The notes below the pieces were generated by a model. The model had not been told where the DNA came from. It saw nothing but the letters and a program-made list of their open reading frames with translations, and did no database searches. Of a stretch of 64,000 nt of DNA, positions 995 to 19,194 are shown piece by piece. A program made the position numbers and the translations under genes. Every line of letters starts with the position of its first letter. Within the stretch, counting starts at the first letter, position 1. Origin of the DNA: a bacterium HR17 (GTDB lineage: Bacteria > Armatimonadota > Fervidibacteria > Fervidibacterales > Fervidibacteraceae); contig BEHT01000015.1 of NCBI GenBank assembly GCA_002898575.1, positions 1 to 64,000 of the forward strand. The letters are read 5' to 3'.

Positions 995-1195
995 TCACGT
1001 TAGGTCTGAATAACTCCCACATCGTAGCCAAATATCACGCCAAGGTTCGCTTGAAGTATGACACGAGTATCCGAACATTGCCCACACAGTGACGGCAACC
1101 CAACTCCAACAATCCACACTAATCACCAAACCGGCTATCATCGCTAACCCAAATGACCATCTCCACTGGCATCGCAATCGCCTTTTATCAATCAA
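995..1195 (-). CDS. Small hydrophobic protein, last gene of the defence operon (tentative)
   Basis: A 66-residue ORF starts with TTG at 1195 and overlaps the stop of the DUF932 gene (TTGA overlap), the arrangement of translationally coupled genes. The product has a long hydrophobic middle, WSFGLAMIAGLVISVDCWSW then VAVTVWAMFGY, consistent with one or two membrane spans, and Arg-rich ends. There is no recognised family and no separate ribosome site, so this could be a chance ORF. The coupling and same-strand position are the only support. Confidence 0.3.
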   Translation of the reverse strand: MIDKRRLRCQWRWSFGLAMIAGLVISVDCWSWVAVTVWAMFGYSCHTSSEPWRDIWLRCGSYSDLT

Positions 1196-2226
1196 GCATG
1201 AGTTTGCAACCTTTGCGTCTCTTTGGACAAAAGTTCGTAGGCTCTTCGTTTGATGGCATTTCCTTTGCCGAAGAAAATGTGAGCAAAGCGGTCCCCTCTC
1301 TTGAAGTTTTGAAGGTGATCTACAAACCCTGTAACAGCATTAAGGGCACCCCACACGGTCTCTTCGGGTTTCATTTGAACCCCGTTACCGTTAATCCCTG
1401 AAACAAATACTTGAGCGATTTGGTTGCGTAATTCTTTTACCTCAGCCACCCGATTCTCATACAACTTGCGCGCCCTCTCAGTCTGCTTAACAGGTGGGCG
1501 AGGTAAAGGGAGAAGTTCAGACAGGAAACGGAGAAATTGAGTTTCGCTGAAAGGGGTTCGTGCCATCGCCATAAATTGCCGGCGAATGGCTTCTGTCTCT
1601 CTTTGAAGGAATTGTTCAACTTCAATCGGTATGGTCTCATAGTGACCTTTATGCCATCGCTTGAAAATCAAAGGCGCTTGCTTTTCCCTCAGCGCCATCT
1701 TAAGGGTGTTCCAACAAACAACACGAATGGTCGTCAGGCGAATGTCCACTGCTATTGTGCCATCGTGACTGTTAGTGAAAAGCATGAAAGGTTCTACGAG
1801 GTCATCATCCCTCACAAAAATGTGAAACTTTTCAGGTAGTTCTGCCAGCAGCCAAATAACTTCCCCGTTGCCCAGATAGCCTCCCGTGTGGTAGACAGGT
1901 TTGCCTTGCCCAACAAGTTGATCAAACAACTTCACAGCATCACGGTTTTGCAAAGGGATGAAGCCAGGGTAGACAACTCCCAAGATACGCGAAGGGTCAC
2001 CGCGAGGCAAGTCCTTGCGCACAACTGCTACACGGCGTTTGATGGGTGTGCCATCAGTTGTTACGATAGGCACCAATTCCACTTCCCATTCCAAACCACC
2101 AAATTTGAGAGCTTCCTCGGCAGTAGCAGGACGCTCCAAGCAAATACCTTTCCCATGCCATGGTCTCCCACCAAAGTAAAACATTTGCCCAACTTGGTCA
2201 GGCATATAGGACACCCCTTCATACAT
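1192..2226 (-). CDS. DUF932 phage/plasmid-like protein
   Basis: A 344-residue protein of the DUF932 family, typically carried by phages, plasmids and genomic islands; its biochemical role is unknown. Family features are visible: the N-terminal PWHGKG motif, a KRRVAVVRKD strand, GVVYPGF and PLQNRDAVKLFD, the central TNSHDGTIAVDIRLT and RVVCWNTL, and a helical C-terminal half. Residue 8 is an alternative ATG at 2205 preceded by GAAGGGG, a better ribosome site than the one before 2226, so the true protein may be 337 residues. It lies 32 bases after the large helicase on the same strand and is the penultimate gene of the defence operon, which suggests it travels with that system. Confidence 0.8.
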   Translation of the reverse strand: MYEGVSYMPDQVGQMFYFGGRPWHGKGICLERPATAEEALKFGGLEWEVELVPIVTTDGTPIKRRVAVVRKDLPRGDPSRILGVVYPGFIPLQNRDAVKLFDQLVGQGKPVYHTGGYLGNGEVIWLLAELPEKFHIFVRDDDLVEPFMLFTNSHDGTIAVDIRLTTIRVVCWNTLKMALREKQAPLIFKRWHKGHYETIPIEVEQFLQRETEAIRRQFMAMARTPFSETQFLRFLSELLPLPRPPVKQTERARKLYENRVAEVKELRNQIAQVFVSGINGNGVQMKPEETVWGALNAVTGFVDHLQNFKRGDRFAHIFFGKGNAIKRRAYELLSKETQRLQTHA

Positions 2227-2258
2227 GGTATCACTTTGCTTGCGGTCATAGCCATGCT

Positions 2259-5200
2259 TTAATCCGATCTAAAGAACTTTTGTATCTCCTCAACGCAATG
2301 CTTCGCATAGCGATAAACTTCTGTCCCCAAAAAGCGAAGAACACGATAATTTTGCCTCTGTAGCCAGCGATTGATACGAGCGTCATGAAGCCTTTGTGGG
2401 AGTGAGGAATGGAAGGCTAAACCGTCCACATAAATAAGCAGGCGATGTTCTGGGTAAGCGAAGTCTGCAGCAGTAATGAGTTGCCCTTGTTCGTCTACAA
2501 CCTGATATTGCTTTTCAGGTTCAGGCAATCCAGCTGAGCGGATGGCTTTGAGGAGTCTTAACTCGGCAGGTGATTGGCAACCTTCCCGACGAGCCTCTTC
2601 CCATTCTGGTCCCTGCATTGGTGGCACTTGTCTACCTACCTGGACAACTTCTGCTTGGGCAGCAACCTTTAACCAATCCACTATTAACTGCCAATCCAAT
2701 AAATGGTGAACTTTTTGGTTGCGGTAAGTTCGCAAGCATCGGTAGCAAGAGCCAGCACAATCATGACCCTCCAAATGCTTTAAGGCAAACTTCGCCACTT
2801 TGGGGAAATTCTCGGCTAAATCCTGCAAAACGCCTGAACCCCCAACAACTGTGTCGACCCAGAAAATTTCCAGCACCTGCTCGCCCTGTTCATCCCGTTT
2901 CACTAACACAAACCCGTCGATGTCTTCCTCGTCCAACTGGAACGCTAAGGCTGCACCTTGCACGATGGCGTAAACCAGACTCCAAGCCCACCGAACTCCT
3001 TCAGCACCAAGCAACTCAACGCCGGGGACGATAAGTCGAAGGGTATCTGCCTTCGTTTGATGCCCTAACGCAATTTCGATAGGTTCACCGTCACAAGTTT
3101 GGCTATGGCGTCGTTGTGCTTTTTGCTTTCGCCCCTTTTTCGCCTTTTGCGAACCCTCTGCAGGTGGTTCAACCGATTCACCGCACTTCTCGCAGATCCA
3201 GAACGAACGCACTTCCTTGACTGTCCCGTCAGGGTTTGTCTCAATCCTTCCCAAGTTCAACCAAAAGATGCTTTCCTGCCGGCGCATTTCTAAGTAACAT
3301 CCGTCACCTAAATGGTAAGTGACTACTTCACCGTCCCGCTGTGGGTGAGCGGCGAAATCAAAAGCGCGCATTGACCTATCTTCCTCTTCTTCGGGTTGCG
3401 CCGTTGTCAGTTCCGCCCGAAAAGCACCTACATCCCAAGCGATTTTCGACCTTTCCGTTAACTCAGCACCACAGCGCAAACAGTTGTTATTGCTTTTTGG
3501 ATTTGCTAACCCACAACTTGGGCATAAGGTGAATTCAAACTTCAAGATACCTCGCTCAGTGATTCCACCCGGCTGGTTCAAAGCGATGCCTTTAACTTCC
3601 CACTTTCCACCTCGTGCGTAAACAACTTGCCCAGGTGCATATTCCCACTGAGCCTGCAATCGGCTGGTAAAAATCGGCTCTGGCTGCAAGCCCAAGTGCA
3701 GTGAACCAGGTTGTGGCGGGAAAGCGTAACCCGGCAACAGCCCCGCCTCTGCAAGCACTCGGGGCAGATAAGCATAATCACGGTCGGTGCGCAAACGGTT
3801 CGCCAGTTCACGGTAACCTTGCTCAAGTTGCCGTTCTTGCTGAGTTTGTTGCACCTTGTTTGCGTAAAAGCGCATGTTCTTAACCGCCTCTTCAATTGCT
3901 TTCGCCCGCAATTCAATCACTTGTCGCACCTTTTCGGGGAAATCGCGGATAACTTCATCAACCCACTGCTCGTTGACCCATTCAAAATCACCGAAAACTT
4001 CCAACGCCCTTCGCTTGCCTGTTTCCAATGCCTTTTGGATGCCATTAACCAACTTCTCAACTTCTGTCGCATTGATATGCCCTTCATCGCTGATGTATGG
4101 TTCGAGGTTGGGAGGGATGGGAAGTTGAGCCTCTTCAAAAACGATTGACCTTACATGGCATGCTAAGGCGATGCGGTTGTCAGCGTAGAAGCGAGGTGGA
4201 TAGATGGCGCCAAAGATAATTTCGTCGGGATGGTCAAAGAAGTAGCCATCGTGAGGGCGGGCACGAGAAAAGCCAGCAACAACGCCCATCCTCGTTTGCC
4301 TCCCTGTCCGCCCAGCCCGCTGAGCGTAATGGGCAGGATTGGGAGGAATATTGCGGAGCGCAACGGCTTCCAAATCTCCAATGTCAATGCCCAACTCCAA
4401 AGTCGGTGTGCAAGCGATGGCGTTTACTTCAGGTGGTTGTTTCTGAAAGGCTTGCTCAATCCGCTGCCGCTCCTCATCGGTGACGGCGGCAGTGTGTTCT
4501 CCAGCATTTATAGGTGGCAAATTGGGATGAGCGATTTGCAATGCCCAAACATTACTTTCAGCAAATGGTCCATCCCATTCCCTCAGTTTCCCTTGACATG
4601 CTTTTTGGTAACTCACTCGGGGACAAGGTGTTCCAGCAGGTTCATTTGCAACAACTCGCCCGCAAGTGTCGCAGCGAACCCAACTTCGGGCAACTTCAAA
4701 CTCCAACAAATCAAGCGCCACTTGATAGCCTTGCCCATTGTTCCCAATATTTGCCCATATGAGGTGACCTGTCTGCTCCAGGAATTCCAATAGAGCCTGT
4801 AGCGATTGTAATGTCGGTCTTGAACCGAGAAAGCGTTGACAGAGTGCCAATAACATTTCAGCACGAAGCAGTTGGTAATGACCTTGGTTTTGCTGCTCCC
4901 GTGAAGGCATCGATTGCCCTGGTCGGGTAAAGGCTTTAGGAAACCACCGTCCACCGCTTGACAGCAAGTCATATTCAACGGCAACTTGCGAACCTGCATT
5001 GAAAGCCCGTTGGATGGCTGGATGAGCCAACGCCCCTTTCGTCCGCATCAAGTCCAGAAGATGGGGGATGGCTTGACGGACTTTTTCCGTTGGCAAGTTG
5101 TGCTCTCGACAAAGTTGTTCAAAATTGTCCCGCCGCAACACCTCTTCCAAGCCTGCATAGCGAACCCTCACTAAACCGAGCCTCTCCAGACTCTGGCGGA

Positions 5201-7304
5201 CATTGGGCTGGATGGCAAATTCTGTCAACAGAGCGCCTTCAACTCTCTTGAGTGCCCTTTCGCGAGCGTCCCTTGTTCTCAGTTCTTCTGTTACTATTCC
5301 GTTACGCACCAACCACTCCAACACTTTGCCTTTAAGCCACTCCCAATCGTGCGGCTCCTCTTCGTCCTTGAGGCAATGGTAAATGGCTCGGCGAACCGAA
5401 AGGCGCTTCTCGGTGTTTTTGATGAACCACGCTTGATGGGCAGCATCTTGTCGGCTATCGCAGAAAATCAGCACCTTTTGCTGCTCTTCGGGCAAATACT
5501 GAATAAGCGCCCTCGCCACCTCCTTCACCGCCCGTGAAACCCCCATGTTCACCTTTGTCAAGACATCTCGGTTACCATATCGGCTTCGGCAAATAGGGCA
5601 AATCGTTCCGCGCCTCTCGTAGGCAGCGAACTCACGAAGCGGTGCACTGCACCCTGACGGGCAAACTCCATCCTTGACAATTGCTAAACACTTGGGGCAA
5701 AGGCGCAGTGTAGAGTAATGTTGTTGCGTCGTCGTTTCCTCAGATCCCTCATCTGTGGTTTCCTCTTCCGCATCCACTTCCAAACTTTCCTTTGGCGGCT
5801 CGTAAAGGAAAATCGTTTGATCTGTTGAAGTTGGCTGAACCCATGGATGCAATCGCTTCTTGTCTTCATCAGGTTTGTAGCAAGCGTAAAAGTCCCAACC
5901 GCAAGTGCGACACAGCACCAAGGGCAACGCTTTTGAACCACAGTTGGGACAATCCCTTTCGCCGTGTCTGAGCAACTTGCCGCAGTTCAAGCAGCGCCAG
6001 AAAGGCAACAAGCCTCGCAAAAGCCGATGGGTTCGCAGGCGCAATTTGAGAGGATGTTCGTCAGGCAAAGCGCTTCCAACCAATAATGCCGCTTCCACTT
6101 CCCTCTGAACCTGTTCGTTAGGTTCAATCCCTCGCTCTTTCGCCCATCTGTTCACCAATTCACCGAACGCTATAGGCTTTTGCAACCATTCCAAAAGCCT
6201 ATAGGCAAGGGGTGTGCGGGCATACAGGCTACCTGCATCAGCACCATCAGCAACGACATCGCTGACCAGTTTAGCAGCCAATCGCTTGACACTTTCCTCA
6301 CTCTTTGGGTCAAAGGCGTCTAACTCTTGCTCGCTGATTTCCGGCAAGGCGGGCATTGTCAAATCAGGTGGCATCGGGGGCGGGACAACAGGAGTGTCCA
6401 AAATCACAGCGTCCTTCTCTGTTTTTTGCCCTGTCAGTTTCGTGAAAAATTCAGCGATGGCTTGTCTTGGGTCTTCACCCATGCCGCTTTGCAGCGTCGC
6501 TGAAGTCCCAATGAAAATTGGCTCTGGTGCATTGGGGTTCATCTTCTTCAAAAAAGCCCTCAACCTTCGCATCAAAAAGGCGATATCCGTTCCCAACTTG
6601 CCGTGATAGTTGTGCACCTCGTCCAAAACGATGAAACGAACTTGGTGGTTTTTGAAGATACGGCGCCCATCGTCGCGGATGAGCATGTAGTCCAACATTT
6701 GGTAGTTGGTCAGCAGAAGGTCAGGCGGGTTTTGCCAGAACTCGCTGCGAACGCATCGCTCCTCATCGGGAGCATCGCTGGGGCGCTCACCGCTAAGTTC
6801 TGTTTCGCCCGTGTAGCGCCCAAAAGAAATGCCTGTGCCCGCCAGCAATCGGCGCAAGCGGTCGCGTTGGTTGTTGACCAAAGCGTTCATCGGGTAAATC
6901 AAAATTGCTTTCACTCCTGTTTTGCCGCGATGGCGAAAGCACCAGTCCACGATGGGCATTAAGAAGGCTTCTGTTTTCCCAGAACCTGTCCCTGTCGCCA
7001 AGATGACGGGTTGACCTTGAAGTATTCTGCTCGCTGCCTCAGCCTGATGCCGGTAGGGGCGTTCAGCGATCTGCCCAAACCATTGGCGAACTTCTTGCGA
7101 CAACCCTTCGATGGGTTCCGTCCGTTCGTAAGCAGGCAGAACCTGAAGGTAAATGTCTCGCACCAAAAAACCTTCCTCGTTCAACGCTGCATCGAAAGCG
7201 TCCCTCAGTTCTTGCCTTGCGGGGCGGAAGACGGTCCGCAGCAGGTGGCGATACTCATCCGCCAACTTCTTCGCAACCTGAAAAGGCGAGTAAGGTGCAG
7301 GCAT
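2259..7304 (-). CDS. DEAD/DEAH helicase with DUF1998 and C-terminal Vsr-like domain (COG1205 type)
   Basis: A 1681-residue superfamily 2 helicase. Motif I is ATGTGSGKT (about residues 103-111), motif II is DEVH (about 228-231), and the motif V-VI region has LGIDIGDLEAVALRNIPP then YAQRAGRTGR. Several zinc-ribbon-like CxxC clusters sit in the middle. Near residue 1530 is the DUF1998 metal-binding cluster, GHDCAGSCYRCLRTYRNQ. The last hundred residues (SPAELRLLKAIRSAG to RVLRFLGTEVY) look like a Vsr/DUF559-type restriction fold, with D-F-A-Y-P and YVDG in the usual acidic positions. The family includes DISARM DrmB, Druantia DruE and BREX-3 BrxHII. I chose ATG 7304 because GGGAGG precedes it; GTG 7316 is possible. 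It lies 32 bases after the PIN-like gene and drives the defence operon's translocase role by inference. Confidence 0.87.
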   Translation of the reverse strand: MPAPYSPFQVAKKLADEYRHLLRTVFRPARQELRDAFDAALNEEGFLVRDIYLQVLPAYERTEPIEGLSQEVRQWFGQIAERPYRHQAEAASRILQGQPVILATGTGSGKTEAFLMPIVDWCFRHRGKTGVKAILIYPMNALVNNQRDRLRRLLAGTGISFGRYTGETELSGERPSDAPDEERCVRSEFWQNPPDLLLTNYQMLDYMLIRDDGRRIFKNHQVRFIVLDEVHNYHGKLGTDIAFLMRRLRAFLKKMNPNAPEPIFIGTSATLQSGMGEDPRQAIAEFFTKLTGQKTEKDAVILDTPVVPPPMPPDLTMPALPEISEQELDAFDPKSEESVKRLAAKLVSDVVADGADAGSLYARTPLAYRLLEWLQKPIAFGELVNRWAKERGIEPNEQVQREVEAALLVGSALPDEHPLKLRLRTHRLLRGLLPFWRCLNCGKLLRHGERDCPNCGSKALPLVLCRTCGWDFYACYKPDEDKKRLHPWVQPTSTDQTIFLYEPPKESLEVDAEEETTDEGSEETTTQQHYSTLRLCPKCLAIVKDGVCPSGCSAPLREFAAYERRGTICPICRSRYGNRDVLTKVNMGVSRAVKEVARALIQYLPEEQQKVLIFCDSRQDAAHQAWFIKNTEKRLSVRRAIYHCLKDEEEPHDWEWLKGKVLEWLVRNGIVTEELRTRDARERALKRVEGALLTEFAIQPNVRQSLERLGLVRVRYAGLEEVLRRDNFEQLCREHNLPTEKVRQAIPHLLDLMRTKGALAHPAIQRAFNAGSQVAVEYDLLSSGGRWFPKAFTRPGQSMPSREQQNQGHYQLLRAEMLLALCQRFLGSRPTLQSLQALLEFLEQTGHLIWANIGNNGQGYQVALDLLEFEVARSWVRCDTCGRVVANEPAGTPCPRVSYQKACQGKLREWDGPFAESNVWALQIAHPNLPPINAGEHTAAVTDEERQRIEQAFQKQPPEVNAIACTPTLELGIDIGDLEAVALRNIPPNPAHYAQRAGRTGRQTRMGVVAGFSRARPHDGYFFDHPDEIIFGAIYPPRFYADNRIALACHVRSIVFEEAQLPIPPNLEPYISDEGHINATEVEKLVNGIQKALETGKRRALEVFGDFEWVNEQWVDEVIRDFPEKVRQVIELRAKAIEEAVKNMRFYANKVQQTQQERQLEQGYRELANRLRTDRDYAYLPRVLAEAGLLPGYAFPPQPGSLHLGLQPEPIFTSRLQAQWEYAPGQVVYARGGKWEVKGIALNQPGGITERGILKFEFTLCPSCGLANPKSNNNCLRCGAELTERSKIAWDVGAFRAELTTAQPEEEEDRSMRAFDFAAHPQRDGEVVTYHLGDGCYLEMRRQESIFWLNLGRIETNPDGTVKEVRSFWICEKCGESVEPPAEGSQKAKKGRKQKAQRRHSQTCDGEPIEIALGHQTKADTLRLIVPGVELLGAEGVRWAWSLVYAIVQGAALAFQLDEEDIDGFVLVKRDEQGEQVLEIFWVDTVVGGSGVLQDLAENFPKVAKFALKHLEGHDCAGSCYRCLRTYRNQKVHHLLDWQLIVDWLKVAAQAEVVQVGRQVPPMQGPEWEEARREGCQSPAELRLLKAIRSAGLPEPEKQYQVVDEQGQLITAADFAYPEHRLLIYVDGLAFHSSLPQRLHDARINRWLQRQNYRVLRFLGTEVYRYAKHCVEEIQKFFRSD

Positions 7305-7336
7305 CGCTCTTGGCACCTCCCTTATGGGTCTTGTTC

Positions 7337-7843
7337 CTATAGGATGCGGGAATAACGGGCTTTCTCCGCTATATCCCGCCTAACTTGTTGCGCCTCTTCG
7401 TGAGAAATCAAACCCCTTTGAACCGCCGACTTCAACAATTCTTGACTGCGGAAGACCTCAATGCCTTCTTGCCTCGCTATGCTGACCATGCCCTTCTCCT
7501 CTCGGTCATCATCTGTCAACACTTTCCAGTTGCGAACTTTTGCGACCGCCAAAACTGCAGCATCAGCGCCTTTGCGGATGCCAGTATACTGTTTCTGCAA
7601 CCGCTGTCTCTCTTGCTCTTCGCCCGGTTCAAGTTCCTTCACCACCTTCAGCCACAAGTCCTCTGTTTCCAACAACTCTTGCAATTCAGGGTATTTTGCG
7701 ACCCCTCTCGCTATTTCTTCCCTCACTCCTTCCGTCACCCAAACGCCGTTGGGGAACAACTGTTTCAACAACTCCAAGTGTCCGCTTCGGGCAAAGTTGG
7801 AAAGTAAAGAGGTGTGGGCAATGGTCTCTTCATGCTCCTTCAA
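7337..7843 (-). CDS. PIN-like putative ribonuclease, toxin candidate
   Basis: A 168-residue protein with a PIN-domain layout: a short first strand with HTSLLSNFARSG, a conserved acidic VREEIARG helix, GADAAVLAVA carrying the mid-domain Asp, and LTDDDREEKGMV with the last Asp pair. The first catalytic position, normally DTS, reads HTS, so activity is uncertain. A TTG start at 7843 is preceded by GGAGG at 9 bases and overlaps the end of the HTH-metallopeptidase gene by 14 bases. The alternative ATG at 7833 is in another frame. PIN proteins paired with Xre/ImmA-type peptidases are known toxin-antitoxin pairs, so this is probably the toxin half of such a pair inside the operon. Confidence 0.65.
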   Translation of the reverse strand: MKEHEETIAHTSLLSNFARSGHLELLKQLFPNGVWVTEGVREEIARGVAKYPELQELLETEDLWLKVVKELEPGEEQERQRLQKQYTGIRKGADAAVLAVAKVRNWKVLTDDDREEKGMVSIARQEGIEVFRSQELLKSAVQRGLISHEEAQQVRRDIAEKARYSRIL

Positions 7844-9013: not shown

Positions 9014-9373
9014 TCATTGCCCGCAGACAGGACAACGCCAGTTGCTATTCGGAGGCTTGGCAGGATGGATATCGTTGCATAGCGGGTTGTATCGGTGGTA
9101 AAGCCAGCATTCTTCTTCGTAGGCTTCCTGCTCAGAGGGCGTATAGCGATAGAAAAAGTGGCTCGGAGGATTACGGAGGAGACAATTGTTCTGCTGTGGA
9201 GGTAAGTGTTGCTGTAGCCTCGCTCGTAGGTTGGTGGAGCGCCCGACATAGACGGCATAATACTTCCCATCAGAACGGTTGAAAACTGTTAAGACATATA
9301 CACCGCAAGCATCTTCAAGCAGTTGAACTTCTTGGCTGTTCAAAGGATAAGGTCCCAAGAACTGTTGCTGCAT
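9014..9373 (-). CDS. Small GIY-YIG nuclease-like protein with C-terminal Cys pair
   Basis: A 119-residue single-domain GIY-YIG protein. The signature is GVYVLT followed by YYAVYVGRSTNLRARLQQHL, with a downstream acidic EQEAYEEECWLYHRY carrying the expected metal-binding Glu. A short tail ends in RCPVCGQ, half of a zinc-binding site, and CWLYHRYNPLC may complete it. Free-standing GIY-YIG domains are DNA nucleases or repair enzymes. ATG 9373 was chosen over GTG 9382 because GAAGGAG lies 8 bases upstream of it. It sits between the methylase (102 bases upstream) and the HTH-peptidase (44 bases downstream), so it is probably co-transcribed with the defence genes. Confidence 0.8.
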   Translation of the reverse strand: MQQQFLGPYPLNSQEVQLLEDACGVYVLTVFNRSDGKYYAVYVGRSTNLRARLQQHLPPQQNNCLLRNPPSHFFYRYTPSEQEAYEEECWLYHRYNPLCNDIHPAKPPNSNWRCPVCGQ

Positions 9374-9484: not shown

Positions 9485-12400
9485 TTATTCGTCACGAAAG
9501 TTGGCTTCGTCTGTTTCGTTTTCCTCGCTTGCTCCAGTGTCCTCTTCTTCAGCGGTCTCCTCTTCCTGTTCGCCCCGTGTTGGGATGTAGGCGACAGCGT
9601 TGAGGGTTTTGATGGCGACATAAAGTCGTTTCTCAAGGTCGCGTATTTCGCCCATTTTCGGCACTTGCGCTTCAGGCACATTCTCTGTGAACCACGCAGC
9701 GAGATCGTGAGGGATGGTTTCAGTTGAAGTTGCTTTCAAAGATGAGTTGGTGATGCCCAACTTCTCACACAACCATTGATGAAATTCGGGATGGGCTTTG
9801 CCAAAAGGTGAGGGTTGCCAACCTTTGTGCAGCATGTAAGCGCAAAGGGCAAGGTCGCGGGTGACGGTGCTTTGTTCCTCGCCTTCTAAAGGTGGTTGGT
9901 CACGATCAAGGAGTGGGAAGGTGGTCAGGATGTAAGCGAACTCAGGGACGGTCAATCCGTAGGCGTCGGCAGCGAGGGCATCAAGTCTTGCACGCAAAAA
10001 TTGGCGCTCTGTCGGGTCAATGCAAGGCAAGCGGTCAAAGTCAGGGTCGTTGCGGTCTTGAGGTAAGCGCCATTGAGCCGAAAGGTCATCAGGATATCGT
10101 TGCGCTACTTGCTCCCATAACTCCGCAAATTCTGGCAAAACACAGTTCAGCCGAGCCGAAAGCACTACCATCTCTCGCCCTACCTGACCGTCAGGCGAAA
10201 GGCGAGGCATGGGAAGTTGGGCAATAAATACAAAATTCAGGTTCTCCTTTACACGCACACGAATAAGCCAGTCGCTGATAAATGAGTTAGCAAGTGCCGC
10301 CCATAGTAAGGCTACGCGAGGGTCATCAGGCGCTGTACTTACAGTGGGCACAGCATTGCCACAAACAGCAATAGATGGCACAACGGCAGACTGCAAGGTG
10401 CGTTCGTTAGTGGCGGAGTTGACACCCAAAAACCCTGCCCGAAACCGCTGCTGCCCTGGAAACATTGCAGCGAACAATTTGGCGCTGACGAAGTAGTGTG
10501 GGTGCAGGTGCTTTTCGTGCCAGTCTAAGTGCTCCCAAACTTGCTTTTTCCCTTCGCCACTTACATACGCTTTCGCAGCAGGATCAAACTGGTGCACCAT
10601 GCGCCCTTCATAAAGCGGCACATAATTGTCGTCGCAAACGAAGCCACGAGTTAAGATTTCGCGCAGGGTCGGTAGGGAACGGGGATTAGGGACTTGAAAT
10701 CGGGATTGACGGCGACGAGTTTGAGACAACTCCTCTCGCAATTTGGCTTCAATTTCCGCTTCCGTTTGACCTTTCAACGCATCCTCGGGCAGGGCAACTT
10801 CCACATCAAATTCCGGAACACGCACGACGCGATAGCCTTTCTGCCGATAGGTTTCAGCATCAGGTGTGCGGTAAAGAATGCCGCCGCGTCGGCTCGCTGC
10901 GTCAGGCTCTTGCCGAACTGCTAAGTTCTGCTCCAACTGCTCCGCTGTGCGAAAGAGATAGGAGTCATTCGTCATGTCCACTTCACGCGTGAAACTCACT
11001 TGCCATGCACCTGCTACCGTTTGACCAAGGCGTGGGAATTTCTGATGGAGTCGTTCGGCGAGGCGATATTCCAGCGCATTTTTGACTTCCAAAAACAGCC
11101 GATAGCCGGGGCTGGTTCGCTCCAAAAAAGGACGAGTCAATCGCACTTCCCGACGCAAACGCTCAGGGTGCGTATCGGGTAGACTCAAGAACTCAGGATC
11201 GTGCAACATGAAGGCAGCAGGGAACTCTTCGGTCTGTCCACCCTTGCGGAAAACGACGGTGGCGAATTTGTAGCGAATGTCAATCGGGAATAGACGCCAA
11301 CGGTTTTCAAAACTGAAGCACGCTTGCAGTTGACTTTTGTCCAGCAAGAGTCGCCTGAGGGCAGTTGCACCCTCAGTGGCGTAGAAAGCAGCAGGCAATA
11401 GGAAACCAACCAAACCGCCTTCGCGGACGATTTGGTAAGCACGCTCAGTGAAGAAGCGGTAGAGGTCAGGGTCACCACTTGTTTTGTGGATGGCTTTTGC
11501 TTCTCTCAAGCCGGCGTTGCAATTAGGACATTGGATGGGTTGACGCTGCGGGAACAGGCTTTTGCCACAAAAGGCACATTTTTTGTCAAGTGGTGTGAGC
11601 ATCCCGCACTTTTGACATATCTTTTCGGGAAGCAAGGCACTACAGGCAGAACAAAGGGTGGCGAATTGGTAGCGATAGACGCCGCTTTTGGTCAGAAATT
11701 CGGCATATTTTTTGATGCCTTTCGCGTGGTCATTCCATTCCTGTTCAAGTTTAGGGAAGAGGCGATGAAGTTCACGGATGCGGTCTTTTCGGACTTGTCC
11801 TTGATACTCGCCGATGAGAGGGTCATAGTCGGAGTAAAACTCCAATTCCTGCGGCTTCACCTTATCCCATGGCGGGTTGCCCAAGACAACATCAAAACCG
11901 GGGTTTTCTTTCGGTGTTCCATCGGGATTGAAGAAGACATCTGGGAAGGCAAGTTCCCAAGAGAAGGCATGATTTTGTTCGCCAACTTGACGCAAAGGCT
12001 CACCAACCTGTAAGGCTTGGTCAAGTTCGCCTGAGCGCAAAAAATTATGCCAACTTTGTCCCGACAGTTTTGAGCCTAAAATGCTTTTTGCCTTTCGCTT
12101 TTTGCTGGCGATTGATAGTTCGGCAAGATCCTCATCCTCCCGATTTGGATCGTTAGGCGCCTCGCCTTCCGATAAAACAGAACCGATGGCAATTTGGTGC
12201 AACTGCCAAAACGGCTCAAGTTCGCTCTCCATCGCTTCGTGGGCTTTTCTCAGAGCATCCAAGTTAGCAGGGTCATCGCTCACCAACTCCGTGATGGTTT
12301 GCAAGTGCTGGAAGGCTTGTTGAAGCCGTTGGCGCAAGAGGTTAGTGAAAAGCCCTTCGGGCAAAAGGCGTTTGAGCGGCACTCCAAGCAAACTGTCGCC

Positions 12401-14320
12401 AACCTTGAAACGGTGATCAAGGAAAGTCAAGGGTTGGTCAGCGGCAGCAGTTTCAATCCACAATGTCACTTTCGCCAAGTCAACAGCGAGCGGGTTTTTG
12501 TCCACGCCGTAAAGGCAATGGCTGGCGATAAGGAGTTTGCAAGCGGTAAGAGCCCGCCATTCATCTTGCCAAACGGCAGCGACGGGTCGGGGGATGGCTG
12601 CTACCGTAAGGGCTTCGCTTTCAGGCAAGTCAGGATTTTCATTCATTACTTGGGCAAATTGTTGGCGGTAAGCATCCAGCAATTTTTGGGCGAGGAAACG
12701 GCAAGCAGCGACAAGGAAGTGCCCACTTCCCATCGCAGGGTCAACAATTTTGAGACTTAAAATCTCCTCAGGCGCTGGCACCCTCCCAACGAGAGGTTGA
12801 AGGCTTTGGCGAACGAGAAAGTCCACAAGGGCAGGGTGGGTGAAGTAAGTCCCTGTTTGCTTTCGGCGAAAGCCTGCCCGGAAGTAGATGGTGCCTTTGG
12901 GTAAGCGGTTGAGGATGCGAACGGACTTTTGCAAGCGGTCAGCACGACGGGCAAGGGAAGCAAGGTAGGGGTCATCGCTCAGAGCATCGGGGTTGACACA
13001 AAGTCGACGTTGGAGCACTTCCTCTAACTGGGCTTTGGTGAGCACTTCTCTTTGCCCATTCACTTCCACCTCCCACATGGGTTCGGTGGCGATTACAGGC
13101 GAGTATTCCATCAGCGTTTCATAGACAGAACCGATGTGTTCAACGGCAAGATTGCGATAGGAAACCCTCCGCCATCCCTGTGGGGTCTGACGGTAAGCGA
13201 GGCGAATGAGGACTTCAGCAAGGGTCTTGTCACCAATGCGAAGGTTTTCAAGGAAGGGCATGCAAGTAGGGTCAAAGAGGTTGCCTTTGTAAGCGGGGAT
13301 TTTGCCGTGCGGACCTAAATCGGCACCTTCCCAAAGGAGTTGAAAGAGAGCGCGAAGGGTTTGTTCCAAGAAAGTATCGTGGTCAGTTAAGAGGTTGCGA
13401 CGGTCAAATGCCCATTTCACCCAACGCGTCAAGGAATAGCCATCGTGATAAACGGGCAAATCCAGCGGAAGCAAACTTTTTGCTTCGGCGTAAAGGACGA
13501 AAAGCAAGCGGTAAAGAAACCTCAAGCCTTCTTGATAAAGTTGTGAGATACTCTGCTCTAAATCGGGGCGATAGGCTTGGTTTTCGGGATGGTCAAGGAG
13601 GGCTTGAAGGAGCAACCGTAAGGCTTCTTGAATTTGTTTACCCAAATCCTCCCCGACTTTAAGGGCATGCATGCGGGCTTCTTCGATGGCTTTCCAAAGG
13701 AGTCGTCCCTTCAAGGCTTCATTGCGCAGAAATGCCCAAAGAAACTGCCATGCCTTTTCCCCATCAGGAAAACCTTCGGCAATTGCCGTTAGGTTCACCT
13801 CCACCCATGATCGCTGCCCACTTTCACAACGAAGAAGGCGAAGGGCAGTGCCGTTAAGTAGTATTCCGACGGTCATGCCTTCTGCCAGCAAAACCCTTTC
13901 CATGACTAGGGTTGGGGAAAAGCGGCGGTGATGCCCTTCAGGTGGGGCATCAAAGAGGGCATCAGGTGCAAGGCAACGGACGAACAAAACGGGTTCGTCA
14001 CCATCCACACTGATGGGATAGCCGGCTTCTTCCTCGCCTTCATCAGTCTCCATACGCTTCCTCTCGCCCACTTTCCAACCAAAAAGTTCGGAAAGGGATG
14101 AAAGCAAATGACGGGCAGTGGCACGGGGTTGCTGGCGGTCAGCAAGGTTACGGAGGGCGAATTGAAGGCTTCGGCGAACATAGCCAAACTTCTTACGAGC
14201 CGTTTCGGCATCCAAATTCTGCCGCCAATTTCTGTCCTGCCAAAGCAACCCGTCGTCGGGCAAGAAGAAGTCATCAGGGAAGGCGGTGCCATGCGTCGTT
14301 ATGGCTTGAGTTCGGGTCAT
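9485..14320 (-). CDS. Large N6-adenine DNA methyltransferase (Eco57I/DrmMI/PglX-like, COG1002)
   Basis: A 1611-residue class I methylase. The SAM-binding motif I is VDPAMGSGHFLVAA (residues 526-539), the catalytic motif IV is LGNPPWDK (813-820), and an intervening VDKNPLAVDLAKVTLW is motif II. This is the N6-adenine type. Residues 50-200 resemble the N-terminal region of type IIG enzymes (GMTVGILLNGTALRLL), but the nuclease E-x-K appears replaced by VRC, so nuclease activity may be lost. Residues 890-934 hold four CxxC pairs (CSAC, CQKC, CAFC, CPNC), an inserted zinc-ribbon pair. Its C-terminal third is a target-recognition-like region. It is 6 bases from the coiled-coil nuclease gene upstream. 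In DISARM/BREX-like systems this enzyme marks self DNA. Confidence 0.88.
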   Translation of the reverse strand: MTRTQAITTHGTAFPDDFFLPDDGLLWQDRNWRQNLDAETARKKFGYVRRSLQFALRNLADRQQPRATARHLLSSLSELFGWKVGERKRMETDEGEEEAGYPISVDGDEPVLFVRCLAPDALFDAPPEGHHRRFSPTLVMERVLLAEGMTVGILLNGTALRLLRCESGQRSWVEVNLTAIAEGFPDGEKAWQFLWAFLRNEALKGRLLWKAIEEARMHALKVGEDLGKQIQEALRLLLQALLDHPENQAYRPDLEQSISQLYQEGLRFLYRLLFVLYAEAKSLLPLDLPVYHDGYSLTRWVKWAFDRRNLLTDHDTFLEQTLRALFQLLWEGADLGPHGKIPAYKGNLFDPTCMPFLENLRIGDKTLAEVLIRLAYRQTPQGWRRVSYRNLAVEHIGSVYETLMEYSPVIATEPMWEVEVNGQREVLTKAQLEEVLQRRLCVNPDALSDDPYLASLARRADRLQKSVRILNRLPKGTIYFRAGFRRKQTGTYFTHPALVDFLVRQSLQPLVGRVPAPEEILSLKIVDPAMGSGHFLVAACRFLAQKLLDAYRQQFAQVMNENPDLPESEALTVAAIPRPVAAVWQDEWRALTACKLLIASHCLYGVDKNPLAVDLAKVTLWIETAAADQPLTFLDHRFKVGDSLLGVPLKRLLPEGLFTNLLRQRLQQAFQHLQTITELVSDDPANLDALRKAHEAMESELEPFWQLHQIAIGSVLSEGEAPNDPNREDEDLAELSIASKKRKAKSILGSKLSGQSWHNFLRSGELDQALQVGEPLRQVGEQNHAFSWELAFPDVFFNPDGTPKENPGFDVVLGNPPWDKVKPQELEFYSDYDPLIGEYQGQVRKDRIRELHRLFPKLEQEWNDHAKGIKKYAEFLTKSGVYRYQFATLCSACSALLPEKICQKCGMLTPLDKKCAFCGKSLFPQRQPIQCPNCNAGLREAKAIHKTSGDPDLYRFFTERAYQIVREGGLVGFLLPAAFYATEGATALRRLLLDKSQLQACFSFENRWRLFPIDIRYKFATVVFRKGGQTEEFPAAFMLHDPEFLSLPDTHPERLRREVRLTRPFLERTSPGYRLFLEVKNALEYRLAERLHQKFPRLGQTVAGAWQVSFTREVDMTNDSYLFRTAEQLEQNLAVRQEPDAASRRGGILYRTPDAETYRQKGYRVVRVPEFDVEVALPEDALKGQTEAEIEAKLREELSQTRRRQSRFQVPNPRSLPTLREILTRGFVCDDNYVPLYEGRMVHQFDPAAKAYVSGEGKKQVWEHLDWHEKHLHPHYFVSAKLFAAMFPGQQRFRAGFLGVNSATNERTLQSAVVPSIAVCGNAVPTVSTAPDDPRVALLWAALANSFISDWLIRVRVKENLNFVFIAQLPMPRLSPDGQVGREMVVLSARLNCVLPEFAELWEQVAQRYPDDLSAQWRLPQDRNDPDFDRLPCIDPTERQFLRARLDALAADAYGLTVPEFAYILTTFPLLDRDQPPLEGEEQSTVTRDLALCAYMLHKGWQPSPFGKAHPEFHQWLCEKLGITNSSLKATSTETIPHDLAAWFTENVPEAQVPKMGEIRDLEKRLYVAIKTLNAVAYIPTRGEQEEETAEEEDTGASEENETDEANFRDE

Positions 14321-14326: not shown

Positions 14327-15583
14327 TCACCCCACACCCACTCTTGACAATTGCTGATGAATCCGCTGCAAGCGGTTACGAAGACTGTTGTAAATTTCCC
14401 GAGCCAATTCAAAAGTCTCCCTTGCCCGGTCGTAAGCAAGGCCTGCTTTATTTTGTAGGTCCCTCATGCGTTCAACATCCTGCAAGGCACTTTGGATTTC
14501 TTCCAGCAATTCCTGTCGGTCTAAGGCAGCCGTTTGCCTAAGGTGGCGGTCAATGAGGCGAAGGCGAGCGACTTGATAAGCGAAGTTGAGGTTGCTTCCC
14601 ATTTCATCCCAGACACAAACCATCTTGTTAGAATCATCCAAGATGGTGAAGGGGACATCGTAGGGGTTTTGGTCAAGGTTGGCGAACAGAAGGATGCCAA
14701 TTTGTGCGTTGCGATTTTGCATAGCCCTGTCCAGATCTTGCTCCACCTGATTTCGATTGCGCTTTTCGTCTTTCACCTCCACAACGATAGCGCCGATTTC
14801 TGAGCCGTTAAAACGAACGCCGATTAACCAGTCACCAGGGCGTTGGTCCCGTCCGACATGGTCTAAACTGTCACCCGTAACCGCAGTGGCTCTCCGCAAT
14901 AAATCACGGACAACTTCCCGTTCAAAGGCGAGCCCCCGTGTTATTGGGGCAAGGCGGTTAGCAATAATGTCAACGGAAGACCGGATTTGGTCAAGGGTTC
15001 TCTGCAAGCCTTCAACGGCTCTGGTAACCGCTTCGTTGATGCATTGAGTTGCTTCACCGTCTCGCCTGAAGTAATCACTGAGGGTATTGCGAACCTGCCA
15101 AAGGTAAGAGCGCTCGCGATTTGGGTCAAATTCGTTCCGCATGGTGTCTATCATTTCATGAATTGCCCTTAACCAACTGTTTGGATGGGTTGGATCTATA
15201 CGGCATTCCATCTGTGCAAGTCGTTCTTGGATGCGCAAGGAGGCTTCATTGGCGGCTCGTTCAATCAATTGGATGGCGGGATCTATTTGCCGGCCGAATT
15301 GTTGTTGGAGGGTTTCCACGATGGCTTTTTGGCTTTGATCAAGTGCCTTTTGCACGGTTGCATCCACATCAGTGCGCCACTTGTCCAGCGCCTGTCGAAA
15401 AAGCATGGCTGTGCTGCCGACAAGGGCACTGTTTAACGCGGTGATGCCAACTTTTAAGGCTCTTTTCACCATCTCCAACCGCTGATTGTCCGCAATCCCC
15501 TTCAGCCATCTTATCGCTTCGGGGTCATCCAAGAAGAGATGCACCTCAACAAATGCGTCGTTCAAAATAATGCTTTCTCCCAC
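14327..15583 (-). CDS. Coiled-coil protein with PD-(D/E)XK nuclease core (RmuC/DUF2130-like)
   Basis: A 418-residue protein. Residues 70-215 are charged helical, coiled-coil-like sequence. Residues 216-302 contain a PD-(D/E)XK-type core: GLAFEREVVRDLLRRA (helix with Glu221), HVGRDQRPGDW (Asp251), IVVEVKDE (Glu269, Lys271) and IGILLFAN. Residues 345-415 are again coiled coil. This order (helical arm, FE helix, GD, ExK) recalls DUF2130 and RmuC families. It starts with GTG 15583 behind AGGGGGG, only 13 bases from the SNF2 gene and 6 from the methylase, so the three are tightly coupled. I infer it is the effector nuclease of the system. No family name is certain, since motif reading replaces a profile search here. 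Confidence 0.75.
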   Translation of the reverse strand: MGESIILNDAFVEVHLFLDDPEAIRWLKGIADNQRLEMVKRALKVGITALNSALVGSTAMLFRQALDKWRTDVDATVQKALDQSQKAIVETLQQQFGRQIDPAIQLIERAANEASLRIQERLAQMECRIDPTHPNSWLRAIHEMIDTMRNEFDPNRERSYLWQVRNTLSDYFRRDGEATQCINEAVTRAVEGLQRTLDQIRSSVDIIANRLAPITRGLAFEREVVRDLLRRATAVTGDSLDHVGRDQRPGDWLIGVRFNGSEIGAIVVEVKDEKRNRNQVEQDLDRAMQNRNAQIGILLFANLDQNPYDVPFTILDDSNKMVCVWDEMGSNLNFAYQVARLRLIDRHLRQTAALDRQELLEEIQSALQDVERMRDLQNKAGLAYDRARETFELAREIYNSLRNRLQRIHQQLSRVGVG

Positions 15584-15596
15584 AGCAAGCCCCCCT

Positions 15597-18536
15597 TTAG
15601 AGCATTGATCTTGGCACCCTCAACAAGATGCCGACTTCTTCCAAAGTTGGTGGCAACAAGGTTGCCCAACGCTGCCATTGTTCTCGCAGCGCCTCCGCTT
15701 GTTGACGGTGCTGGCGCAAACGACGCTGGATGGCGGGGGGTAATTTCGCCTCCATATCGCTAAAAAGGGGTCGTTGAGCGTATTGTTGCCAATACTCACC
15801 CAAAATTTCCCGCTCCATCGCTTCCCTCCACGCTTGCCATTCACCCAGCATCCGCTTAAGATGCTGTTCCCGCTCGTAAAGCAATTGGCGGCGGTAACCT
15901 TCGGCTCGCTGCCTTGCCTGTTCATATGCCCGCTGCCGACCATCCTTCCACCAGTCAGCAAATAACCGCTCCAGCGTGGCTATGTCCACATTCCCACCAG
16001 GTTTTGATAAAGCATCTGCCAAGCGTTGCCGGTCAGATTTCTCATCAGTGGATACTTTGTTTCTTGTGACCTGAACGGGTTCAAGGAGTGTGAGGATTGA
16101 ACCTGCCTTATCGGGCAAAGTTACCAAGAAAGTCACAATCATTTCAGGTTCGTTAAGGTTAGGGACAACTTGGTAAGCAAGGCGGATTTCCTCCTGTTGT
16201 GGTTCAAAGCGAAGGCGATGGAACCATTGCAAAGCGGCTTTAACCAAAGGGTGATTGGGATGTAGGATGGCATCAGGAGAGATGGAAGGGTCATCTGGCG
16301 GATGTAAATAAAGATGCTCATATTGAGGTTGAATTTCTGGGTCCAATGCTAACCATTGGGTAGGGGTTTGCACAGAGACATGTCCGTCTTGTTCATACCA
16401 CTGACCATTCACTAAAAGGACAGCACTTCGGAGAAACTCGTCCAAGTTGGGCACGAAAGGAGTTTCAGGTAAGGTGCGACGCAGCGCCATCAACAACCCT
16501 TCTTCTCCTTCGGCTAATGACTCTCTGGGGGCTTTCGCCTTCAAAAGTTCGTCCAAGGCACTATCGGCTTCGTCTATCGTTTTTTGGCTCATGAGCAACC
16601 TTTCTAAGTGTTCCTGTTGGAAACTGCCTAAAAGGTCAGTGACGGTGCCTTCAGCACGAAGTTTTCGGTCCAACTTTTCCAGCAACCTTGCTAAAACTTC
16701 ATCTTCATAAGTGTTGGCAAGGTATAGGAAGGCAATAATTGGAGGCTTGGTTTGACCGTATCGGTCAATGCGCCCGTTACGCTGCTCCAATCGGTTGGGG
16801 TTCCAGGGCAATTCAAAATGGACGAGGTGATGACAAGTGTAGTGAAGGTTTAACCCTTCGCCGGCAATGTCTGTCGCCACCAAAATGAGCCCTTCTCCGA
16901 ACAGGAAGCGATGAATGGCTTCCTTTTGGTCTCTTTCAGGGTCTTCACCTGTCGCCGTCACAACTTTGCCTTCGTAACCGTTGGCGGACAGGAACTTGGC
17001 GATGGCGTTCACCGTGTCCACATACTCGCTGAATACTAACACCTTCGTTTCAGGCTGCTTTTGGTGCAATTCCTGAAGCCATTGCAGCAACCTTAAAAGT
17101 TTCGGGTCAGGACTTTGCTGTTCCAGACGGATCAATTCATCCAGCAAATCTTTCACTTGTAACTGTTCTTCTTGTAATTGCACCAATTCCTTACGCAAGC
17201 GACGCATCGCCGAGAGGTAATTGAGATAGGCATCGTTCTCCAACTTGCGTTGCTCATCGGGTGTTAAAGGTTCTCCCCTCCTCCAGCGACGAAGCAATTC
17301 CCGATCGGCTTCCACCTCTTCCAATTGCTCGGTAATAACTTGCAAGCGCCTTTGAAGGGAATTCTTGAGGGCAGCTTGGGAAGAGGCAGCCCGCTTGCAA
17401 AGGATGGTGGCGACAAATTGAAAAGCGGAGCGATCTCTTTCGTCCCTGGCTTGCTCAGCAGCAGCCCAAATGGCCTGAGCATATGAGCGAACTTTGCCAT
17501 AGAAAGCACTTGCAGCATCGGAAAGATGCACTGCCAAAGGCTGAACCGGTGCCCTCAAAATGAATTTTTGTGTTCCGTCAGGGTTTTTAATGTGGCTTTT
17601 CAGTCTACGGATATAGTGTCGACGGTATCTTTGAGGGTTTAAAGGTTGCCCGGAAGGAGCAAGGGTGGGATCAAGGAAACGGAGTAAAGTCGCCATGCTC
17701 TCGTCATAACCGTTATGAGGTGTAGCGGTCAAAAGCAACAAAGCGTCGCAGGCTTCTGACAAAAACCGTCCCAATCGCAGCAATTGCTTGTCGCTTTCGC
17801 CTGCCCCGGCAGGGGCAACATGGTGGGCTTCATCTACGATGATGACATCCCAATGCAACCCCTGCAGTTCCCGAAAGGCACCATCAGGACGTTTGAGGAA
17901 ATCCATACTGGCAATGATACGAGGCTCATGCGCCCAAGGGTTAATTCCCGCTTCTAACTCCCGCCTTTTTTGGGCGAGGGTGTTACGGTCAAAGATGACG
18001 AAACGAAATCCAAACTTAACTTGCATCTCCCTCTGCCACTGATGCCTTAGGCTGGCGGGGCAAACGATGAGGACGCGGTTAGCACGACGACGGGCGTGAA
18101 GTTCCATCAAGATAAGCCCAGCCTCAATTGTCTTTCCTAAGCCCACATCGTCAGCGATAAGCAAGCGGGGTCGGGGCAAAGAAAGCGCCATATGCACAGG
18201 CACCAGTTGGTAGTCCTCCCGACGGATGGGTGCCAATTGTGAGGCAAGGAGGCTTTGACCTATACCCGAACTCTCTAAAAGCAAGGAATGATGGAAAAGA
18301 CGAAAGAGGGCTAATCGCCCAGGGCGCTGCAGGGAAGGTTCAGGCACTTCTGCTGGTTCCACTTTTTCCAACGGAACGATGAGGGAGATGGAGAAGTTAG
18401 GTTCATCAAGGTCTTGCAATTTAATGAGATGGATGAAGTCATCTTCTACCCTGCCACCTTGTTGGCAATCCACAATTCGGAAGCGTCGCCCTCTTGCTTG
18501 CACTGTCATCCCAGCCATTAAACGCATTCCCGACAC
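15597..18536 (-). CDS. SNF2-family ATPase/translocase, DrmD-like
   Basis: A 979-residue SNF2/RapA-like helicase. Motif I is DDVGLGKT (129-136), motif II is DEAH (235-238), motif III is TATPHNGY, motif V is ATDIAGEGLNLH and motif VI is EQRNGRIDRYGQ. Between the lobes lies a long helical insertion (roughly 395-490). The C-terminal third is helical and rich in Arg and Gln. DISARM class 1 DrmD and related phage-defence SNF2 proteins share this layout. The start is GTG 18536 in the longest reading, with ATG codons at residues 4, 7 and 10 as alternatives. No clear ribosome site decides. Downstream genes begin 13 bases after its stop. Its role by inference is DNA translocation or remodelling during restriction. 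Confidence 0.88.
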   Translation of the reverse strand: MSGMRLMAGMTVQARGRRFRIVDCQQGGRVEDDFIHLIKLQDLDEPNFSISLIVPLEKVEPAEVPEPSLQRPGRLALFRLFHHSLLLESSGIGQSLLASQLAPIRREDYQLVPVHMALSLPRPRLLIADDVGLGKTIEAGLILMELHARRRANRVLIVCPASLRHQWQREMQVKFGFRFVIFDRNTLAQKRRELEAGINPWAHEPRIIASMDFLKRPDGAFRELQGLHWDVIIVDEAHHVAPAGAGESDKQLLRLGRFLSEACDALLLLTATPHNGYDESMATLLRFLDPTLAPSGQPLNPQRYRRHYIRRLKSHIKNPDGTQKFILRAPVQPLAVHLSDAASAFYGKVRSYAQAIWAAAEQARDERDRSAFQFVATILCKRAASSQAALKNSLQRRLQVITEQLEEVEADRELLRRWRRGEPLTPDEQRKLENDAYLNYLSAMRRLRKELVQLQEEQLQVKDLLDELIRLEQQSPDPKLLRLLQWLQELHQKQPETKVLVFSEYVDTVNAIAKFLSANGYEGKVVTATGEDPERDQKEAIHRFLFGEGLILVATDIAGEGLNLHYTCHHLVHFELPWNPNRLEQRNGRIDRYGQTKPPIIAFLYLANTYEDEVLARLLEKLDRKLRAEGTVTDLLGSFQQEHLERLLMSQKTIDEADSALDELLKAKAPRESLAEGEEGLLMALRRTLPETPFVPNLDEFLRSAVLLVNGQWYEQDGHVSVQTPTQWLALDPEIQPQYEHLYLHPPDDPSISPDAILHPNHPLVKAALQWFHRLRFEPQQEEIRLAYQVVPNLNEPEMIVTFLVTLPDKAGSILTLLEPVQVTRNKVSTDEKSDRQRLADALSKPGGNVDIATLERLFADWWKDGRQRAYEQARQRAEGYRRQLLYEREQHLKRMLGEWQAWREAMEREILGEYWQQYAQRPLFSDMEAKLPPAIQRRLRQHRQQAEALREQWQRWATLLPPTLEEVGILLRVPRSML

Positions 18537-18623
18537 CCGCCCGTCATTATTGGCAATGTAACTCTGGGCACTGAATCCATCACGGCAACCCCAACACCAA
18601 TCTTAGTCTTGCCTTCACTTCCC

Positions 18624-18932
18624 TTAGTCACAGTCACTCAAGCGTCCTAAACAGTGCCGAACTAACTTTGGATCAAGAGTGGCTAAAACGCTTTTAACAA
18701 CTGAGGGAACATGCAGCCTTGCTTCCCGCCAATCTTGAAGGGTGTAGTATGTCGGTCCCTGATGGGCAGCCACATTGCTGGTCATCGCTGCCACGATAAT
18801 GTCAGGTTCCGTAGAATGGTAGGTTTCCCCGCAGACAACCAAAGAGGGACGCACCTTCCTAGATGTCATGTCCGCAAAGGGAAAAGGCACCAACACCCCA
18901 TCACCGCGTCTTAGCCCTTTTGCCTTTGCCAT
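18624..18932 (-). CDS. MazF/PemK-type toxin (endoribonuclease)
   Basis: A 102-residue PemK/MazF-like protein. The fold signature is RRGDGVLVPFPFADMTSRKV followed by RPSLVV and IIVAAMTSN, and LHVPSVVKSVLATLDP is the region with the conserved Ser/Thr strand. These toxins cleave RNA in the cytoplasm. ATG 18932 has GGAGG 7 bases upstream and starts inside the antitoxin gene, overlapping it by 32 bases, the standard toxin-antitoxin layout. A longer reading from 18965 lacks a ribosome site. It is the second gene of the defence operon and lies 87 bases before the SNF2 gene. Confidence 0.85.
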   Translation of the reverse strand: MAKAKGLRRGDGVLVPFPFADMTSRKVRPSLVVCGETYHSTEPDIIVAAMTSNVAAHQGPTYYTLQDWREARLHVPSVVKSVLATLDPKLVRHCLGRLSDCD

Positions 18933-19194
18933 GTCTCTCCTCCCAATTGCCCCAAGCTTCGGCATCTACTGGGTTGTCCCAGATACGGTTAAAGGAAGCA
19001 GCAGATAACCCAGCAAATGCCCTTCGTTCTGAGGCTGTCCAATAAGGGACGATGCCAGCCCTTTTTGCCTCAATGTATCTTCGGGCTGCTTCCCTCAAAA
19101 ACTCACTGCGGGTCCTGTTCTCCCTTTTAGCCTCCTTGTCTATCTCTTTGAGCAATTTTTCAGGCAGAGAGATGTTGATGACCTTTGTCGCCAT
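18901..19194 (-). CDS. Ribbon-helix-helix antitoxin
   Basis: A 97-residue CopG/MetJ-type protein. The first strand and helices are clear: TKVINISLPEKLLKEIDKEA then RTRSEFLREAARRYIEAKR, which binds DNA as a dimer. The acidic, Trp-rich C-terminal half (DNPVDAEAWGNWEERHG) would wrap the MazF partner encoded by the overlapping downstream gene. ATG 19194 has AAGGAGG 9 bases upstream. It is the first gene after the promoter at 19230-19258, so, as is usual for antitoxins, it may repress that promoter and thereby the whole defence operon. That is an inference from position. Confidence 0.85.
   Translation of the reverse strand: MATKVINISLPEKLLKEIDKEAKRENRTRSEFLREAARRYIEAKRAGIVPYWTASERRAFAGLSAASFNRIWDNPVDAEAWGNWEERHGKGKRAKTR

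Follow-up and report, generated by a model that had tools for sequence, protein, structure and literature searches.

Our analysis of positions 1 to 64,000 (forward strand) of contig BEHT01000015.1 from bacterium HR17, a member of the Armatimonadota, revealed a ten-gene operon whose three-gene core is, judged from sequence, ARMADA, a defence class described in a bioRxiv preprint (Bell et al., 2025; PMC12458937). This 64,000-nucleotide stretch is referred to below as the window. As a whole, the locus is probably an anti-phage defence system of the ARMADA family in which accessory effectors form further layers. A preliminary description of the same DNA had found no described system with this gene set, a statement that holds for the accessory genes but not for the core. 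The novelty therefore lies in the accessory layer of the operon, and a puzzling gene cluster can be assigned to a newly described defence class.

The operon comprises ten ORFs on the minus strand (1192-19194) and lies at the start of a contig in a genome of 3.15 Mb and 75 contigs. The ORF coordinates matched those of the preliminary description, and the distances between neighbouring genes, read from the RHH gene to the DUF932 gene, are -65, 87, 13, 6, 102, 44, -14, 20 and 32 bases, in agreement with the single same-strand operon recognised there. GC3 is uniform across the operon genes (0.47-0.59, about 0.5) and lower than in five long ORFs sampled elsewhere in the window (0.60-0.74), which marks the operon as a compositional island of foreign composition. 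A sigma-70-like site (TTGACA-17-CATGAT; minus strand, 19230-19258; 10/12) lies directly upstream of the first gene and corresponds to the good promoter reported earlier, and a second promoter-like site with an extended -10 (TTTACA-17-CATAAT; minus strand, 9424-9452; 10/12) occupies the gap between ArmB and the GIY-YIG gene, ahead of the GIY-YIG, ImmA, PIN and ArmC genes. Since promoter-like sites are overall about as numerous (16) as shuffling would predict (11.8), only the positions of these two are suggestive.

Domains were assigned by profile searches of the operon proteins against PADLOC, Pfam and NCBIfam. These agreed with the earlier calls (SNF2, N6-adenine methylase, DUF1998 helicase, GIY-YIG, ImmA/PIN, MazF/RHH and DUF932), and with the view that an unusual accessory set has been placed on a defence-type operon with an SNF2 protein, an adenine methylase and a DUF1998 helicase. 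ArmA (979 aa; minus strand, 15597-18536) is a RapA/BrxHII/DrmD-like SNF2 translocase with SNF2 and Helicase_C domains and with GLGKT (Walker) and DEAH motifs; its PADLOC scores were 454 bits for DrmD and 329 bits for BrxHII, and it matched the NCBIfam DrmD model at E = 6e-145 (485 bits, under the cut-off of 610). ArmB (1611 aa; minus strand, 9485-14320) is a PglX/DrmMI-like N6-adenine methyltransferase (PADLOC DrmMI, E = 1.6e-114; PF07669, Eco57I) with DPAMGSG at residue 527 and NPPW at 815, and soon after NPPW (residues ~890-940) it carries a zinc-ribbon-like insert with four CxxC motifs that is private to this protein, being missing in 12 of 12 aligned relatives. ArmC (1685 aa; minus strand, 2259-7316) is a one-piece YprA helicase with DEAD, Helicase_C and MZB (DUF1998; residues 1449-1528) domains and a C-terminal DUF559/Vsr nuclease (1617-1681); it matched DruE1 (E = 3.5e-140, 467 bits), PF09369 and PF04480, with a best DrmA score of 66 bits. 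The MZB match supports the DUF1998 domain noted earlier in this giant helicase, of which the C-terminal DUF559/Vsr-like nuclease had been overlooked. The predicted nuclease residues (ADF...YVDG...H) are kept in common with relatives and look intact. In a structure model, ArmC residues 296-700 form a helical domain followed by a strand-rich stretch, with CxxC motifs at 442-573, and a Foldseek search of this model against the PDB, made as a check for a BrxA-like insert, returned no significant match.

The ARMADA core has been described as a RapA/BrxHII-like SNF2 protein (ArmA), a PglX-like methylase with NPPW (ArmB) and a YprA helicase (ArmC) that joins OB, CON and DUF1998 in one chain with a C-terminal, predicted-active Vsr nuclease; a BrxA-like helical insert after RecA1, followed by a zinc beta-barrel, is a further feature, and type II loci, like many type I loci of archaea and cyanobacteria, have the order ArmA-ArmB-ArmC (PMC12458937). 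The window operon shares the RapA/BrxHII-like ArmA, the NPPW motif of ArmB, the one-piece YprA helicase with a Vsr-type nuclease and the A-B-C order. Protection by the E. coli type II system depends on each of its four genes, on the Walker motifs in ArmA and ArmC and on the NPPW motif in ArmB; it is non-abortive and is lost when ArmD, a GajB-like UvrD helicase with a fused RelE domain, is deleted (PMC12458937). The motifs of ArmA, ArmB and ArmC that are essential in E. coli are intact in the window operon. However, the operon has no ArmD: an E. coli ArmD query found no homologue in the window and matched homologues in L110, L125, L005, L078, L004 and L119. It also differs in belonging to a small, deep subclade beyond the sampled type-I clade, and in carrying extra genes in two gaps: one for a coiled-coil PD-(D/E)XK protein in the ArmA/ArmB gap, and GIY-YIG, HTH-M78 and PIN genes in the ArmB/ArmC gap. 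In the main text of PMC12458937, a term search found none of these four named as parts of ARMADA.

Relatives were gathered by a genome-wide methylase scan, phylum-level helicase searches and plasmid searches. As to whether the gene order is kept in other genomes, a check proposed with the preliminary description, the core recurs in A-B-C order at 33 other loci in bacteria and archaea (several more have the order C-A-B), but GIY-YIG, MazF/RHH and DUF932 recur in none of the related ARMADA operons. The nearest locus, L008 from Candidatus Sulfopaludibacter (Acidobacteriota), is 45, 35 and 47% identical in ArmA, ArmB and ArmC, respectively, and the ArmC of G252, from the same phylum as the window genome, is 50% identical. 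The ArmA, ArmB and ArmC trees all group the window with L008 (joined by L100 in the ArmC tree), then with L013, L004 and L119, followed by the branches L009+L104 and the archaeal L020+L025; this group falls outside a large clade of cyanobacterial, haloarchaeal and Deinococcus loci. The 17 sampled sequences taken as type I form a clade with a support of 100 that excludes the window ArmC. Approximately unbiased (AU) tests did not reject joining the window group to type I (p-AU 0.37) or to type II from E. coli (p 0.24), and the E. coli ATCC 8739 ARMADA II and Druantia III (DruE III) proteins are long branches whose exact placement is untrustworthy. The profile matches, the shared order in relatives and the concordant ArmA, ArmB and ArmC trees together identify the three-gene core as ARMADA, and reveal a deep ARMADA branch that lacks the type-II ArmD and falls beyond the type-I clade as sampled.

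The preliminary description had instead likened the operon to class 1 DISARM, which would make it a derived variant in which DrmA and DrmB had fused and DrmC had been swapped for other nucleases. The strong matches of ArmA and ArmB to the DrmD and DrmMI models are those expected of DISARM homologues, and DISARM loci such as L042 and L081, the outgroups in our relative set, have the same DrmD-DrmMI-helicase order as the window. However, ArmC scores far higher against DruE1 than against DrmA (467 versus 66 bits), the DrmA, DrmMI and DrmD proteins form branches of their own (support of 100, 100 and 96) away from the window, the DrmD score of ArmA stays below the NCBIfam cut-off, the NPPW of ArmB is that of E. 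coli ARMADA where L042 has NPPF, and the DrmB and DrmC genes are missing from the operon. The earlier report of a single DUF1998 helicase and no DrmC was correct, the helicase being one 1685-aa protein, unsplit and on another YprA branch than DrmA, and no protein matching a phospholipase-D nuclease. With helicase, methylase and SNF2 protein all grouping apart from their DISARM counterparts in profiles and trees, DISARM was rejected, and we regard this origin of the operon as very improbable. Druantia, with ArmC as DruE and its neighbours as unrecognised Druantia partners, is equally improbable. The window helicase is of the same broad YprA lineage and its top PADLOC models are DruE1 and DruE3, but DruE is simply the nearest name available for this helicase, since PADLOC 2023 listed no ARMADA match. 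Among the PADLOC matches listed for the operon proteins there is no DruA-D, DruF/G, DruM or DruH model, the companion genes are different, and E. coli DruE III occupies a separate branch with L113, L118 and L128. The nuclease domain of Druantia types I and II is described as inactivated (PMC12458937), whereas that of the window ArmC is apparently intact. Druantia was therefore rejected by profiles and trees.

BREX and Hma (BR type 1) were also considered. No PglZ or BrxC/PglY match was present among those listed for the operon proteins by PADLOC and NCBIfam, and BREX was rejected, in line with the preliminary description. Hma, a type-1 BREX-related system, resembles the window operon in combining an SNF2 helicase with an adenine methylase, and homologues of the coiled-coil protein flank it in G124, G180 and G1161. 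However, neither the DUF499 ATPase nor the DUF1156 methylase of Hma was matched in the operon by PADLOC or Pfam, and Hma has no YprA helicase; it too was rejected. In one of the compared loci (L113:3-9073), a DruE-like helicase gene comes directly after one for an HmaB-like (DUF1156) methylase; the pair looks like a hybrid of Hma and Druantia. The profile scores of the window proteins give a reason why present tools would mislabel loci of this kind as DISARM or Druantia.

Within the operon, the gap between ArmB and ArmC holds an HTH-M78 (ImmA/IrrE-like) protease of 379 aa (minus strand, 7830-8969; PF06114, E = 4.1e-20; HTH_3, E = 1.2e-14), which is RmrA-like, keeps HExxH in alignment and is predicted to be an antitoxin or regulator, and a PIN-domain protein of 168 aa (minus strand, 7337-7843; PF01850, E = 3.2e-6; PDC-S70, E = 1.3e-10), a predicted RNase toxin. 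The RNase activity of the latter is doubtful because in the alignment a histidine replaces the first catalytic aspartate (IAHTS versus IDTS); its other acidic positions are kept. This pair and MazF/RHH have the domains expected of type II toxin-antitoxin systems (spr1629/RmrA-like HTH-M78 with PIN or DUF4411, and MazF with RHH) and overlapping frames, but they sit inside an ARMADA operon and the PIN protein lacks its first catalytic aspartate.

The ArmB/ArmC gap appears to be a recurrent insertion slot. One or more extra same-strand ORFs lie there in about 23 of the 33 A-B-C loci, a count from mechanical ORF calls that may be partly spurious, and the contents vary among loci (GmrSD-like, DUF3644, AAA ATPase, DUF2887 and others). 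An HTH-M78 gene and, after it, a gene for about 165 aa occupy it in the window, in L009 (Verrucomicrobia), in L116 (the window's phylum) and in L123 (Chloroflexota), where the contig stops within the M78 gene and the upstream ArmB is presumed. As the small partner, the window has a PIN protein and both L116 and L123 have DUF4411; that of L009 had no significant match in a profile search, PIN included. M78 genes number one in G000 (the window genome), G292 and G837, where the slot copy is the only one, and two in G045, so that a rough Poisson estimate, approximate because the loci were sampled non-randomly, gives ~0.017 slot occurrences expected by chance against the four observed. Other RNase-like genes lie in the A/B or B/C gaps of L146 (UPF0175 + DUF3368), L007 (AbrB/PIN), L004 (ParE-UvrD) and L005. 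UvrD helicases are also present between ArmB and ArmC in two relatives of the window (L004:11455-13572 and L119:11200-13374), and that of L004 has an N-terminal ParE toxin domain and is thus ArmD-like; ArmD-like genes are therefore also found away from their strict type-II position. Given this ParE-UvrD protein in the same slot and the requirement for ArmD in E. coli, the PIN/M78 pair may, by analogy, fill the role of the ArmD RNase domain.

The gap between ArmA and ArmB contains a coiled-coil protein of 418 aa (minus strand, 14327-15583) with a sub-threshold match to DUF2130 (E = 0.0013) and RmuC/DUF2130-like character. Its putative active site (E221, GD250-251, E269-V-K271) follows an E...GD...(V/I)E-x-(K/R) pattern common to seven diverged family members, with homologues at 17-21% identity; because these members keep the pattern, the PD-(D/E)XK identity proposed earlier is well supported, and the protein is a predicted auxiliary DNase. 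An AlphaFold model from the single sequence had a pLDDT of 41, too low for the fold to be used, and a family profile searched against the PDB gave only chance coiled-coil-like matches. Profile searches placed family members in five genomes of the window's phylum (the window included), one Acidobacteriota and 14 Chloroflexota; others are on several Nostoc plasmids and a Methanomethylovorans plasmid, and one scan of viral contigs found no relatives. In G124 and G1161 the gene follows HmaA-HmaB-HmaC on the same strand, split into two ORFs in the latter; the G180 copy adjoins Hma in divergent orientation, and in Methanomethylovorans the gene lies downstream of a type III-like Mod-Res pair. The Chloroflexota copies are mostly solitary chromosomal genes, three of which (L165, L168 and L170) are near genes that, recognised by eye, we take to be Ku/LigD, hinting at a chromosomal role at DNA ends. 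The gene is found between ArmA and ArmB in 0 of the 33 relatives, so that its link to ARMADA rests on the window locus and on analogies. From these sequences, the coiled-coil nucleases are repeatedly located beside helicase-methylase systems, with the ARMADA pairing seen once, and they apparently represent an undescribed RmuC-like PD-(D/E)XK family, a candidate component of three different defence systems. Auxiliary nucleases of the PD-(D/E)XK type have been reported close to Hma/BR systems in PMC12839542, which also proposes a layering of auxiliary DNases and backup RNases in BREX and Hma-like systems and in the available part of which this family is not named; the concept of auxiliary and backup effectors is thus already known.

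The remaining accessory genes are less widely shared. The operon begins with an RHH (CopG-like) antitoxin of 97 aa (minus strand, 18901-19194; PF01402, RHH_1, E = 2.8e-12), overlapped by a MazF/PemK-like toxin of 113 aa (minus strand, 18624-18965; PF02452, E = 1.5e-9). A small GIY-YIG nuclease of 122 aa (minus strand, 9014-9382; PF01541, E = 4e-6) has no homologue in the compared loci, the window alone having one, and the last gene encodes a DUF932 protein of 344 aa (minus strand, 1192-2226; PF06067, E = 1.5e-42; TIGR03299) that is probably a passenger. None of the related ARMADA operons compared carries GIY-YIG, MazF/RHH or DUF932, and we treat these genes as local additions. A DUF932 protein similar to that of the window (E = 9e-33) is encoded near a DruE-like gene, on the opposite strand, in a locus of the same phylum (L118:18710-19759).

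The mechanism that we propose takes its core from the E. coli ARMADA experiments and its accessory part from position, recurrence and domain content, and every activity, trigger and backup role in it is one that we infer. ArmB would methylate adenines at a host-specific site, and this mark would most likely serve to tell self from non-self; ArmA and ArmC would engage unmarked DNA, or intermediates of phage replication, and degrade it while the cell survives. The coiled-coil PD-(D/E)XK protein could supply a second DNase. The HTH-M78/PIN pair would be an RNase module that is kept repressed and acts as a backup once the core has been overwhelmed or inhibited. RHH/MazF may be an ordinary toxin-antitoxin pair, used either for addiction or as another backup, and GIY-YIG and DUF932 would be local additions.

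Alternatively, the three core genes may be the entire defence, and the coiled-coil nuclease, GIY-YIG, ImmA/PIN, MazF/RHH and DUF932 genes may have entered a permissive operon independently of one another, as mobile modules of an addictive or selfish kind. This is a real but lesser possibility. Toxin-antitoxin pairs are often mobile, the accessory genes vary by locus, the ArmB/ArmC slot is empty in L006, L015, L021, L039, L137 and L141, and the absence of GIY-YIG, MazF and DUF932 from related ARMADA operons would be expected of passengers. However, the HTH-M78 module occupies one slot in four distant lineages, despite about one such gene per genome, the coiled-coil gene is joined to ArmA and ArmB by gaps of 13 and 6 bases, and GC3 is uniform throughout the operon, which is more consistent with the layered system that we favour. 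Under that reading, the operon provides evidence that BREX-type layering, with core restriction, an auxiliary DNase and a backup RNase, reaches ARMADA, together with a recurrent insertion slot. More tentatively, ARMADA systems might share a modular RNase-type slot between ArmB and ArmC, filled by RelE/ParE-UvrD in one lineage and by HTH-M78 + PIN in others. The coiled-coil proteins might likewise be a new family of plug-in DNases that ARMADA, Hma and type III restriction systems have in common, with its origin in a chromosomal protein for DNA-end processing that is encoded near Ku/LigD in some Chloroflexota.

Beyond the operon, a stretch of 6.5 kb (~19.9-26.4 kb of the window) is without any ORF of at least 190 aa. 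It contains a C-terminal Cas1 fragment (plus strand, 21525-21908; PF01867, E = 3.8e-21), near which a repeat search found no CRISPR array, and a fragment of an NAD-dependent epimerase (minus strand, 23044-23373; PF01370), and resembles a CRISPR-Cas or mobile region in decay. Further along the window, a fluoride riboswitch (RF01734, 36.9 bits) is located on the plus strand at 55194-55291.
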